Source: Bradyrhizobium japonicum USDA 6 (GTDB lineage Bacteria; Pseudomonadota; Alphaproteobacteria; Rhizobiales; Xanthobacteraceae). Taken from it: 64,000 nt of DNA. Made by a program: the position numbers and the translations under genes. A model generated the notes under the pieces. That model searched no databases. It worked only from the letters and a program-made list of their open reading frames with translations, and was not told the DNA's origin. The stretch covers positions 248,001 to 312,000 of the forward strand of contig NC_017249.1 in NCBI RefSeq assembly GCF_000284375.1. The letters are read 5' to 3'. The stretch's first letter is position 1; the number at the start of each line of letters is the position of its first letter. Below are positions 6,489-10,738 of this stretch, piece by piece.

Positions 6489-8063
6489 TTACTCCATCGT
6501 CTCCCAGAGCCGGTGGGCGAGCACACCGGCACGCTTCTCGATCGCGGCCGCCGCATCGAGCGCGAGGTCCTCGCGATAGCGTCCCGCGATGAGCTGCACG
6601 CCGATCGGCCGGCCGTCATGCAGGGTCACCGGCACCACCGCGCCGGGCAGGCCCAGCACGTTGATGGCGGAGATGAAGCGGATCTCGCCCCAGAAGATTT
6701 CCTTCACACGATCGGCGCTGACGGTGTCGTCGCGCGGTCCCGGCGTCGGTTTCACCGTGGTCGGCGCCAGCACGACAGGATACTCCTCGAAGAACAATTG
6801 CCAGGCGCGGATATGGCCGTTGCGTGCGGCCGTCGCCTGCATCCAGGCCTTGAGATCGAGCGCGTTGGCCTTGGTCTTCATGCCGCCCCAGGCCTTGTGG
6901 AAGTCCTCGGACGTCACCTTCAGCATGCCGGCCTCCTGCATCACCACGGTCTCGTTGGTGATGATGTCGCACCAGGTCTGCCAGACGCCGTCGATGTCGG
7001 GGACATCGACCTCGGTCACGCGATAGCCGGAACGCTCCAGGTGATCGGCGGCCTGACGCAGCGCCGCGCGGACGGACGGATCGACGTCCATATCCTCCGG
7101 AATCCTGGCCAGTGCGACCTTGATCGGCCCCTTCGGCTTGGGCCCGGCCAGCGGCGCCGGCACCCACCAGGGATCGCGCGGATCGCGCTGGCTCATCACA
7201 TCGAGCGCGAGGCGGACGTCGCCGACGTGACGCGCGAGCGGGCCCTGCGCCGACATCAGATGCGCCAGCATCGGCCGCTCGGCGGTGGCGCTTCCGTTGA
7301 AGGCGGGGATGCGGCCCTGCGTTGGCTTGATGGTGGCAACGCCGTTGCAATGCGCCGGCCAGCGCAGCGAGCCGCCGATATCATTGCCATGGGCGATGGT
7401 GCCGATGCCGGCCGCAACCGCCGAGCCGGCGCCCCCCGAAGAGCCGCCGCAGGTGATGTTTGGGTCCCAGGGGTTCAGCGTCAGCCCGTGCAGCGGATTG
7501 TCGGTGAAGCCGCGGAAGGAGAATTCCGGCGTGTTGGTGAGGCCGATGACGATCGCGCCGGCTTTCTTGAGATTGCGCACCACGGGCGAGTCCGACGGCG
7601 CGACAAAATCCTTGTTGGCGGGCACACCGTTGAAATTCGGCCGGCCTTCGTAGTCGACATTCTCCTTGATCGTGATGGGCACGCCGTGCAGCAGGCCGAG
7701 CGCGACGCCCTTGGCGCGCTGCTTGTCGGCCGCATGCGCAGCCTTCAGCGCTTCCTCGCTGAGATCGACGACAACCGCGTTCAGCCGCGGATTGACGGCG
7801 CGCATCCGTTCGAGATGCGCTTCGACGGTCTCGACCGCGGAGATCGCGCCGTTGCGGATCGCGGCTGCGGTGTCGACCGCGGACCATTGCCAGACCGGAC
7901 CTTTCGGACGGCGCGCCGTCGCCGACTTGCGCGGCGCCGGCTTCTTGACCGTCTTCTTGGCCGCCTTCGTAACTGCCCCCTTCCGGGCGGTGCTCGTCTT
8001 GACCGAGGTCTTCGTTACTTTCCTTGCAACACTTTTCTTCTTCGTCGCCGTCTTCTTCGCCAC
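6489..8063 (-). CDS. Amidase-signature protein with lysine-rich histone-H1-like N-terminal tail
   Basis: A 524-aa amidase-signature (Ser-cisSer-Lys) hydrolase. The catalytic core is visible: Lys in GVPITIKENVD, the Gly/Ser loop CGGSSGGAGSA and nucleophile Ser in GNDIGGSLRWPA. I chose GTG at 8063 because GGAG lies 7 bases upstream; longer ATG starts add an unrelated Arg-rich stretch. The first ~55 residues hold 16 Lys and 5 Arg, are otherwise mostly Ala/Thr/Val/Ser, and have no acidic residue. They resemble the C-terminal tails of histone H1 or AlgP and suggest nucleic-acid or polyanion binding. The amide substrate is unknown. The gene diverges from the UDG-fold/amidohydrolase pair with a 249-base shared upstream region. 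Downstream is a hairpin at 6447-6477. Confidence 0.9.
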   Translation of the reverse strand: MAKKTATKKKSVARKVTKTSVKTSTARKGAVTKAAKKTVKKPAPRKSATARRPKGPVWQWSAVDTAAAIRNGAISAVETVEAHLERMRAVNPRLNAVVVDLSEEALKAAHAADKQRAKGVALGLLHGVPITIKENVDYEGRPNFNGVPANKDFVAPSDSPVVRNLKKAGAIVIGLTNTPEFSFRGFTDNPLHGLTLNPWDPNITCGGSSGGAGSAVAAGIGTIAHGNDIGGSLRWPAHCNGVATIKPTQGRIPAFNGSATAERPMLAHLMSAQGPLARHVGDVRLALDVMSQRDPRDPWWVPAPLAGPKPKGPIKVALARIPEDMDVDPSVRAALRQAADHLERSGYRVTEVDVPDIDGVWQTWCDIITNETVVMQEAGMLKVTSEDFHKAWGGMKTKANALDLKAWMQATAARNGHIRAWQLFFEEYPVVLAPTTVKPTPGPRDDTVSADRVKEIFWGEIRFISAINVLGLPGAVVPVTLHDGRPIGVQLIAGRYREDLALDAAAAIEKRAGVLAHRLWETME

Positions 8064-8312
8064 GCCGCATCTCCAAAAAATTGCGCGGCGGAGGTTATGG
8101 AGATCACGCGAGCGTGTACAGGCGCGTTTCTGCATGGCGCGTCGCCGCGACGCTCTGCCACGGGCCGGCGCGAGAGACGCGCATGAACCTTTGGCCCCAC
8201 TGTCCTGACCCATATACTGGTTGAATGGTGGAATAAACCACCGCCAAGATTGTGCCATGGCGATTAGGTTTTTGACCTAGCTATCTGACAGCGACACATC
8301 GGAGCATTTGCC

Positions 8313-9131
8313 ATGCTCGTGGAATTCGACAGCGGATACGACCAGCAGCCATTTCGCGATCTGTGCGCCGACTATCCGGCCGCTGAAATCTATGATCCCG
8401 ACGATTTCCGGATTGAATGGGGGCCGATCTTTCATCGCGGCCGGCTCGACGGATCGGCGCGTGTGCTCGTCGTCGGTCAGGATCCCGCCCAGCACGAGAC
8501 GATCGTGCGCAGGATCCTGGTCGGCACCGCGGGGCGCCGCACTCAGGGCTTTCTCGCCAAGCTCGGCATCACGCGGAGCTACGTGATGGTGAACACCTTC
8601 CTGTACAGCGTCTACGGGCAGAGCGGCGGCAACAAGCACAAGAACGAGCCGGGCATCGTCGACTATCGCAACAAATGGTTCAAGGCCGTGCTCGCGCCCG
8701 GCAATATCGAGGCCGTTGTCTCGCTCGGCGGCCTCGCCGACGAGGCCTGGAAGGCCTGGCTCACGACGTCCGACGGCGCGGCCTACAAGACCCTTGCCTA
8801 TCAGCACATCACCCACCCGACCTGGCCGGAAAGCTCGGCCCATGATAACGCGACGCGGGCCGCGAACACCAAGATCATGCTGACCAAGTGGAACGCCGCG
8901 CTCGCGGCTCTCGCACCTGAGGTCCAGCATCCCGACGTGCCGACGGCGCTCGTGCCATATGGCGACGCCTTCAAACCGACCGAGCTCTTCGACATCATCG
9001 CAAAGGATCTTCCCGCCGGACTGCCGGCGTGGATGCGCGGAGACACGCCATGGGCCGTGCGCCAGGGCGCCGACGCGGCCACCAAGCGGCGCACGATCAC
9101 GATCACCATCCCAGACGGAGTGATCCCATGA
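8313..9131 (+). CDS. Uracil-DNA glycosylase-superfamily protein
   Basis: A 272-aa protein whose N-terminal ~195 residues show the UDG fold: motif A-like [12 protein letters not shown] followed by [13 protein letters not shown], a [12 protein letters not shown] strand, [12 protein letters not shown], and motif B-like [12 protein letters not shown] enzymes remove damaged or deaminated bases from DNA; here GQDPA resembles the family 1 GQDPYH motif but lacks its Tyr and His. The C-terminal ~75 residues are not recognised. GGAG 9 bases upstream supports the ATG. The stop overlaps the next gene's start as ATGA, so translation is probably coupled to the amidohydrolase. A small palindrome, TAGGT-N5-ACCTA at 8265-8279, lies just upstream. 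Whether it is an active glycosylase is uncertain. Confidence 0.75.
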
Positions 9132-10738
9132 GCCCGGCTGCCAACCCGAAGCGATGGGCCCTGAGCGGGCGGATCGTGACGATGACCGCCGAGGGCGACG
9201 TCATCAAGAGCGGGACGATCTTCATCGAGGACAGTCGCATCGCCGCGATCGTACCCAAGGGACAGCCGGCCCCGGCAGGCTTCGAGGCCGTCGTTGCAGT
9301 GGCGACCGGCGGCACCATCTATCCCGGCCTGATCGAGCTGCACAATCATCTGAGCTACAACATCCTGCCGCTCTGGCGCGTGCCGCAGCCCTACGGCAAT
9401 CGCGACCAATGGCAGAACGCCAAATCGTACAAGACGTCGGTGACCGGCCCCATGAGCGCGATCGCGCTGGCCGACGACGGCTCGCTGCTGCCGGCCCTGG
9501 TCCGCTACGTCGAAGCCAAGTGCATGGTCGCGGGCACCACGACAAGTCAGGGGATCACGCTGTCGAACTGGAGCGGCACGATCCACAAATATTACAAGGG
9601 CGCGTTGCGCGCCGCCGAGATCGGCAGCCCACCCGATCTGCCGAAGGCCCACTCGAAGATTCCTGACATCGATGCCGAGGATTGGGCGAAGTTCGACAAC
9701 GAGTTGAAATCGTCATCGTGTTTCCTGCTGCATCTCAGCGAAGGCATCGACACCAAGGCGCATAGCCACTTCCTCGCCTTACGCAATTCCGAGGGAGATT
9801 GGGCGATCGAGCCGTCGCTCGCCGGCATTCATTGCACGGCACTCGATGCGACCGACTTCGGAACGATGGCCGAAAACCATGCCAAGGTCGTCTGGTCGCC
9901 CCTGAGCAATCTCCTGCTCTACGGAAAGACGACCAATGTCGTTGCCGCACGCACGGCCGGCCTCACCATTGCGCTCGGTTCGGACTGGTCGCCGTCCGGC
10001 AGCAAGAACCTGCTCGGCGAGCTGAAGGCGGCCAAGGTCGTATCCGCCCATTTCAATCTCGGCTTCAGCGACTACGACATCGTCTCGATGGCGACGCGCA
10101 ATCCGGCCGCGATCCTCAAGTGGGATGCGAAGCTGGGAACGATTGCCAATGGCAAGTTCGCCGACCTTCTGGTCGTGAAGGGAGTCACCGGCGATCCCTA
10201 CGCTCATCTGATCAAATCGCGCGAGCAGGACATCGTTCTGGTCACCATTGGCGGACGGGCCCGTTATGGGACGAAGACGGTCATGCAGAAGGCGGGCGGA
10301 ATCGGCGAGGCGCTCAAGATCGGCAGCAGCGCACGGGTGATCGACTTCACCTCGCCCGACCAGGATCCCGGGATCGAGAGGATCACGCTGGCGGAGGCGA
10401 CGGGCCGCCTCCGTGCCGCGCTCGGCAATCTCGGCACCTTGCAACCGCACAGCCTCGCCATGAGCGATGCGATCGCCCGCGGAGCGGTATCGCGCACCGG
10501 ATGGCGTCTCGCGCTCGACGAGCAGTTCGGCAACAACGTCCAGCTCCGCCCGCGGCTGGAATATAACGGTGTCAGGACCGGTCCGGATTTGGCGGCGGTC
10601 GCGGCAGCGGCCGAGCCGCTGCACCCGATCAAGCTGGATGGCCTCACGGTATCAGGCGATCCCGCTTTTCTGGACACGCTGAAGAGCGAGCCGAATCTTC
10701 CAGCGGGAATCGCAACGGCGATCGCGGCTTTTTACTAG
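9128..10738 (+). CDS. Metal-dependent amidohydrolase (imidazolonepropionase/TRZ-ATZ-like)
   Basis: A 536-aa amidohydrolase-superfamily TIM-barrel enzyme. Visible metal ligands are HxH in [12 protein letters not shown], His in [10 protein letters not shown], His in GIHCTALD and Asp in LGSDWSPSG. The flanking N- and C-terminal strands ([38 protein letters not shown]) are the usual composite beta-sandwich. About 130 extra C-terminal residues follow and are not recognised. The family deaminates or hydrolyses ring amides, including nucleobases and triazines. The start at 9128 overlaps the stop of the UDG-fold gene (ATGA), with GGAG 8 bases upstream inside that gene. It ends 7 bases from the convergent aldo/keto reductase gene. 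The substrate is unknown. Confidence 0.88.

Follow-up and report, generated by a model that had tools for sequence, protein, structure and literature searches.

The described enzyme closest to the subject of this work is BdiUng (Blr0248) of Bradyrhizobium diazoefficiens, a uracil-DNA glycosylase (UDG) whose class was published by Chembazhi et al. in NAR in 2017 (doi 10.1093/nar/gkx209). BdiUng is said to excise uracil, 5-hydroxymethyluracil, and xanthine, single-stranded DNA being preferred, and to resist Ugi. We take this class to be marked by the motif A GQDPA and by an unusual, extended motif B region; the classical UDG motif B is HPSPLS. A passage of PMC8307549 groups BdiUng-like enzymes with broad UDGs of wider substrate specificity, which according to that passage may have U derivatives, hypoxanthine, and xanthine among their substrates, and the BdiUng paper is also cited in a part of PMC10359453. 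The stretch analyzed here, called the window, comprises 64,000 nucleotides of Bradyrhizobium japonicum USDA 6 (contig NC_017249.1, positions 248,001 to 312,000) and encodes an ortholog of BdiUng whose gene overlaps that of an amidohydrolase of the COG0402 type. The new part is this amidohydrolase partner, the UDG class being already published.

Other members of the UDG superfamily are more remote. Family 4 UDGs, with the motif GEAPG where the window UDG has GQDPA, and UdgX have the UDG fold in common with it (Foldseek TM-score of about 0.35 to 0.45 to its model). UdgX carries GEQPG as motif A, as given in a part of PMC10359453, together with a KRRIH loop. Identity of the window UDG with UdgX was rejected, as it has neither GEQPG nor KRRIH and scores 24 bits with TIGR03914 against a cut-off of 190. 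Like the window UDG, the defense enzyme Brig1 is a superfamily member outside ordinary uracil repair; in the portion of PMC11078745 considered, one gene, found among putative defense genes, sufficed for immunity, whereas the window UDG is paired, and the term amidohydrolase is absent from the main text of that paper.

We put at roughly 50% the probability that the UDG and the amidohydrolase form one functional unit, by which a base would be excised from DNA and then hydrolyzed. A preliminary description of this DNA had suggested an undescribed system. Of this, the UDG itself proved to belong to a published class, whereas no description of the pair, of an amidohydrolase coupled to BdiUng, or of fused forms was found in the open-access literature, searched through titles and the beginnings of abstracts, a scope outside which most subscription papers fall.

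Conservation of the gene pair

The two genes share four bases, and the pair is therefore probably translationally coupled. The preliminary description, which had pointed out this ATGA overlap, was right to see in the UDG and the amidohydrolase a real unit; it is conserved across phyla, well beyond close relatives, and fused in some relatives. The contigs of named genomes were scanned with six UDG peptide patterns, a search that finds only relatives carrying one of the patterns, and 56 UDG loci were obtained. An amidohydrolase relative lies nearby in all 55 loci that have a near-full-length UDG. Nineteen of these are of the Bradyrhizobium type (one of them titled Frankia), and the other 36 include loci from Mycobacterium, Nitrosospira, Nitrosovibrio, Nitrospira, Variovorax, Caballeronia, Aromatoleum, Catenulispora, Kitasatospora, Verrucomicrobia, Pyrinomonadaceae, Polyangiaceae, and Phycisphaerales. 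The locus titled Frankia sp. RB7 (L035) is of the Bradyrhizobium type at 84 to 88% protein identity, and its genome is probably mislabeled.

The retention of the overlap was scored as an in-frame amidohydrolase start exactly at the four-base overlap (position −4). Such a start recurs in 40 of the 55 loci (19/19 of the Bradyrhizobium type and 21/36 of the others, some of these 21 having further in-frame starts), which is more than chance would give. In the loci outside the Bradyrhizobium-type group that were counted for the overlap, UDG identity is about 56 to 60%. Among the 15 loci without the overlap start, 10 have the amidohydrolase downstream after a gap of 18 to 412 bases, and three, all actinobacterial, have the two genes divergent. 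An S41 peptidase gene stands between the pair in another (L073), and the last is fused (L074).

Whole genomes gave the same picture. With limits of E below 1e-160 for the UDG and below 1e-200 for the amidohydrolase, both were found in the same 9 of 98 genomes of the genus, 19 weak matches (longer proteins, ∼30% identity) not being counted as UDG. In the family of the Nitrosospira genome L041, which we take to be the Nitrosomonadaceae, both occur in the same 15 of 125 genomes, one of them with a decayed pair. There, remnants of the UDG, the amidohydrolase, and an S41 peptidase adjoin one another (L132:6096-7855), a joint decay that speaks for the link. The Fisher p values of 6e-13 for the genus and 1e-19 for the Nitrosospira family are indicative only, because the genomes share ancestry and the two genes lie side by side. 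Moreover, when 22 of the genomes behind the scanned loci were searched, the amidohydrolase was found in 21 and as a single match in 19; of the 22, only the Terriglobia genome of locus L076 had no match. The pairwise identities of the two proteins covary over 26 loci (r of 0.75, with none of 2000 label permutations exceeding 0.40), although common descent by itself would give much of this correlation. Several of the genome-set searches used strict E limits (1e-10 to 1e-180), so that distant forms are uncounted.

Natural fusions

In the Phycisphaerales locus L074, an open frame runs from the UDG into the amidohydrolase without a stop until the latter breaks off near the contig end, and the matching remainder of the amidohydrolase begins another contig of the same genome. 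When the two window proteins were joined into one query, 1,939 matches resulted, of which the best 120 were examined. Both domains are present in 53 of these and nearly full length in 50; the 53 are not a frequency, since they come from the best matches to a query built to favor fusions. The UDG comes first in 52, and the amidohydrolase comes first in one (P0200).

Active-site positions of either enzyme are preserved in the 50 nearly complete fusions. On the amidohydrolase side, the six active-site residues are complete in 50/50; on the UDG side, D57, N94, and H168 are kept in 49/50, the remaining one having an alignment gap. Two further motif A positions are less strict: Q56 is kept in 46 (with three Ser and one gap) and A59 in 44 (with three Gly, two Ser, and one gap). 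For 106 UDG domains, the well-supported branches of a tree cannot be reconciled with fewer than four changes between the fused and separate states, and the best tree has six; these counts do not distinguish gains from losses. Three fused proteins (P0194, P0195, and P0197) form a highly divergent clade on a long branch, and the motif A of P0195 is ASDPG instead of GQDPA.

Active sites of the two enzymes

The window UDG scores just under the Pfam UDG cut-off (22.1 versus 24.3 bits), but its fold is settled because an ortholog has a solved structure. A profile from 41 homologs retrieved Blr0248 (BdiUng; PDB 5gn2, 5gn3, 5gnw, and 5grk) with an E value of 3e-139, and the AlphaFold2 model (pLDDT 84.5) matched 5gn2 in Foldseek with a TM-score of 0.93 and 91% identity over 272 columns. 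The window protein is a full-length ortholog of the BdiUng class, equal in length to BdiUng and with the same motif A. Across the 41 aligned homologs, G55 to A59 and E62 of motif A, N94, and H168, P169, and T170 are invariant, and most of the alignment rows shown carry HPTWPES or HPTQPES in place of the classical motif B. We equate D57, N94, and H168 with the catalytic residues of UDGs; all three are intact, and the UDG-like pocket supposed at the outset belongs to a protein whose ortholog has a solved UDG structure. Pfam finds four more UDG-superfamily matches above cut-off in the window genome, which shows that the BdiUng-like enzyme is not its sole UDG.

The amidohydrolase, which had been noted to carry all its metal ligands, indeed has H72, H74, H202, E205, H235, and D286, and these six (H72xH74, H202xxE205, H235, D286) are invariant in 30 aligned homologs. 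We take this HxH/HxxE/H/D set to be that of the mononuclear deaminase-type enzymes of the amidohydrolase superfamily. Together with the family fold, it agrees with COG0402-type deaminases and chlorohydrolases, and the protein is predicted to act as a mononuclear-metal, deaminase-type enzyme. Sequence and fold place it near methylthioadenosine (MTA)/S-adenosylhomocysteine (SAH)/adenosine deaminases, AtzA, isocytosine deaminase, and guanine deaminases. It differs from the nearest COG0402-type structures in its low identity to them (about 17 to 21%), in a C-terminal part that structural alignments hardly cover past about residue 440, in invariant W/Y positions particular to window-type amidohydrolases among the aligned homologs, and in its link to a UDG. 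It lies far under the cut-off of all NCBI models among the matches listed (25 of 37). Guanine deaminase proper (TIGR02967, 60 bits against a cut-off of 375), 8-oxoguanine deaminase proper (PRK08203, 64 bits against 532), and MTA/SAH deaminase proper (far beneath its NCBI cut-off) were each rejected.

Proposed function and competing explanations

In the scheme that we favor, what the window encodes as two overlapping genes would be one bifunctional protein elsewhere among bacteria. The UDG would excise a deaminated base, or one modified in another way, from DNA that is probably single-stranded. The amidohydrolase would then hydrolyze the freed base, probably with loss of an exocyclic amine or a comparable group, and the hydrolyzed base would no longer be salvageable into nucleotides. 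The purpose would be repair plus detoxification. The order of the steps, the hydrolysis of the freed base, the identity of this base, and the purpose are what we infer.

A stronger version, in which the glycosylase is obligately coupled and repeatedly fused to a nucleobase hydrolase and one particular base is excised and destroyed on the spot, is put forward tentatively. If true, it would mean that some specific lesion or modification of DNA lies beyond ordinary UDGs, with proteases (S41, caspase, and CHAT) attached in some lineages, and to our knowledge a DNA glycosylase carrying its own enzyme for the base it releases would be without precedent. If BdiUng pairs with a deaminase-type hydrolase, its natural substrate probably differs from the known ones. 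The fusions, in which a single protein would hold two active sites for one base, would then offer a direct route to that substrate.

Several points weigh against excision followed by hydrolysis. Deaminases and dechlorinases alike are found among the closest folds of the putative base hydrolase, only a few Z units apart. The substrates ascribed above to BdiUng carry no exocyclic amine, and a deaminase acting on those freed bases would be chemically senseless; it follows that either the natural base differs or the amidohydrolase does something else. An amino-bearing oxidized or modified base as the substrate, a hydrolase acting before excision, or another purpose altogether are the alternatives. 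One of the 56 scanned loci (L076, Terriglobia), left out of the co-occurrence counts, holds a UDG fragment with the first 69 residues matched and no amidohydrolase, and two genomes of the genus without the UDG carry a distant amidohydrolase (about 32 to 33% identity; E of 7e-76 and 6e-62). Finally, among 397 genomes of the phylum the UDG was matched solely in the window genome, and a distribution as patchy as this is unusual for general repair. One full UDG match, from the genome at the center of the search, and one remnant were found in 300 genomes of an order, and the UDG occurs in 3 of 108 genomes of a family, the center genome counted. The remnant (L078), which was set aside, is a UDG tail fragment beside a recQ-like sequence (named by eye).

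Patchy spread and decay are also what would suit an anti-phage or conflict module, in which the UDG would, like Brig1, remove a modified base from invading DNA and the amidohydrolase would process the base or act as the effector, with proteases joining in some lineages. A defense role of the pair is possible, weakly supported, and in our judgment unlikely. It draws on the existence of Brig1 as a UDG-superfamily defense enzyme (in the portion of PMC11078745 cited above) and on protease genes beside the pair, namely, a caspase-domain gene (L044), a CHAT-domain gene with a caspase-like fragment (L063), and S41 peptidases in 8 of the 36 loci outside the Bradyrhizobium-type group, although the L063 fragment has no Pfam family. 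A distant amidohydrolase following Mokosh-type genes (L149) points the same way. The neighbors were collected as 138 open reading frames (ORFs) from 27 of the 36 loci, 9 having been excluded by hand as near duplicates, and 29 PADLOC families match among them at E ≤ 1e-10. Most of the families listed match a single ORF, as do the Argonaute-, DpdF-, and BREX-helicase-type models. Against this, even the most frequent Pfam and PADLOC families reach no more than 4 of the 138 ORFs each, a test that is weak because the ORF calls missed real genes, some S41 included. The UDG, the amidohydrolase, and the amidase of the window have no PADLOC match at E ≤ 1 and are in this sense not members of a known defense family, and the window genes flanking the three look metabolic where identified. 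The pair has no match among 50,697 phage and 72,556 plasmid records, which speaks against a conflict module too; its carriage by plasmids or phages was rejected for lack of matches in either collection.

The reverse order of events, in which the amidohydrolase would come first, deaminating a nucleoside or else a base while it is part of the polymer or pool, and would leave the product for the UDG to remove from DNA, appears distinctly unlikely. The closest folds of the amidohydrolase do include the MTA/SAH/adenosine deaminases, which act on nucleosides. We know of no amidohydrolase of this superfamily that acts on DNA polymers, and this counts against such an order, as does the extra reason that would be required for creating a lesion merely to excise it. 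The substrates that broad UDGs, BdiUng-like ones included, may take according to the passage of PMC8307549 (U derivatives, hypoxanthine, and xanthine) would be compatible with it.

That the pair is linked only by regulation or cluster transfer, the amidohydrolase having an unrelated metabolic job, we consider very unlikely. The subfamily linked to S41 and the distant relatives in UDG-less genomes suggest a wider role for the amidohydrolase, but at least four changes between the fused and separate states, with both domain orders, are hard to explain by common transfer alone. A role in nitrosative stress, an idea that arose from the presence of nitrifiers and denitrifiers among the carriers, was not supported: within the genus, copper nitrite reductase is above cut-off in 7 of 9 carriers versus 50 of 89 non-carriers (Fisher p of 0.30).

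Gene layout and neighboring genes

The coordinates of the features are collected in Table 1. The window genome is 9.2 Mb in a single contig. In the window and L021 to L039, GGAG precedes the UDG start in 20/20 aligned sequences; the region upstream of the UDG is conserved only in patches across these 20, and a clear operator for a divergent promoter was not seen in them.

TABLE 1 Features of the locus, in positions of the window
Feature	Position	Strand	Basis
UDG gene, BdiUng (Blr0248) ortholog, 272 amino acids	8313-9131	+	91% identity to PDB 5gn2
UDG motif A GQDPAQHE, residues 55-62	8475-8498	+	catalytic Asp57 by homology
UDG motif B region HPTWPES, residues 168-174	8814-8834	+	catalytic His168 by homology
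ATGA, UDG stop and amidohydrolase start, 4 bases common to both	9128-9131	+	sequence
Amidohydrolase, COG0402 deaminase/chlorohydrolase type, 536 amino acids	9128-10738	+	
Amidohydrolase HxH metal-ligand motif, H72 and H74	9341-9349	+	invariant in homologs
Amidase with Lys-rich N-terminal tail, neighbor outside the unit	6489-8063	−	NCBIfam PRK07487 amidase match, 717 bits
Divergent intergenic region 5′ of the UDG gene	8064-8312	no strand	sequence

The S41 peptidase that accompanies the pair is Pfam confirmed in 3 of its 8 loci. These come from Nitrosospira, Nitrosovibrio, one Polyangiaceae, and one Burkholderiaceae metagenome-assembled genome, and their amidohydrolase belongs to a more distant subfamily; within the Nitrosospira family, both amidohydrolase subfamilies are found with the UDG. 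An all-against-all comparison of the neighbors showed that, in the first 60 clusters, only the S41 peptidase spans several lineages. The remaining clusters outside Bradyrhizobium were read as shadow frames of the pair, as Nitrosospira/Nitrosovibrio gene order, and, in one case, as putative LysR-type regulators. A third conserved partner was rejected on these grounds, none besides S41 (8/36 loci) recurring across lineages in those 60 clusters.

The caspase-domain gene of L044 lies directly upstream of the UDG, and the CHAT-domain gene of L063 is upstream of the UDG and overlaps its start. At the contig edge of the latter locus, the fragment to which Pfam assigns no family resembles the L044 caspase (36%, 63 bits). 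The protease genes of L063 (L063:3-4536) are perhaps in one operon with the pair. In a pair-less Bradyrhizobium genome (L149:1980-8841), the Mokosh-type genes MkoA and MkoB (PADLOC E values of 9e-158 and 1e-94, respectively) are followed directly, in the same orientation, by a distant amidohydrolase (33%).

The lysine-tailed amidase

The amidase facing the pair was read from a GTG start at 8063 with GGAG upstream, a start chosen by the analyst. As described beforehand, 16 Lys and 5 Arg but neither Asp nor Glu occur among its first 55 residues, and this tail may bind nucleic acid. The link proposed between the amidase and the pair did not hold. At ≥87% identity the amidase is present in 49 of the 98 genomes of the genus, a count that becomes 65 when E ≤ 1e-180 is the limit; of the 49, 8 have the pair and 41 do not, and the ninth carrier of the pair (G002) lacks it at the 87% cut-off. 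The Lys-rich tail is found in all 30 amidase loci read, 22 of which are pair-less, and the amidase is absent in all 36 loci outside the Bradyrhizobium-type group, examined over stretches of 5 to 11 kb; the facing arrangement is a matter of position only. A three-part system with a DNA-bound, lysine-tailed amidase, for which its place beside the pair in Bradyrhizobium and the composition of the tail could be cited, is by this distribution largely refuted and hardly credible, and the amidase was ruled out as a member of the unit.

Across the 30 genus loci, the sequence of the Lys/Ala-rich tail varies and its composition is constant. A different, second amidase gene (PF01425) is found about 5 kb past the pair, at 15873-17300 on the minus strand.

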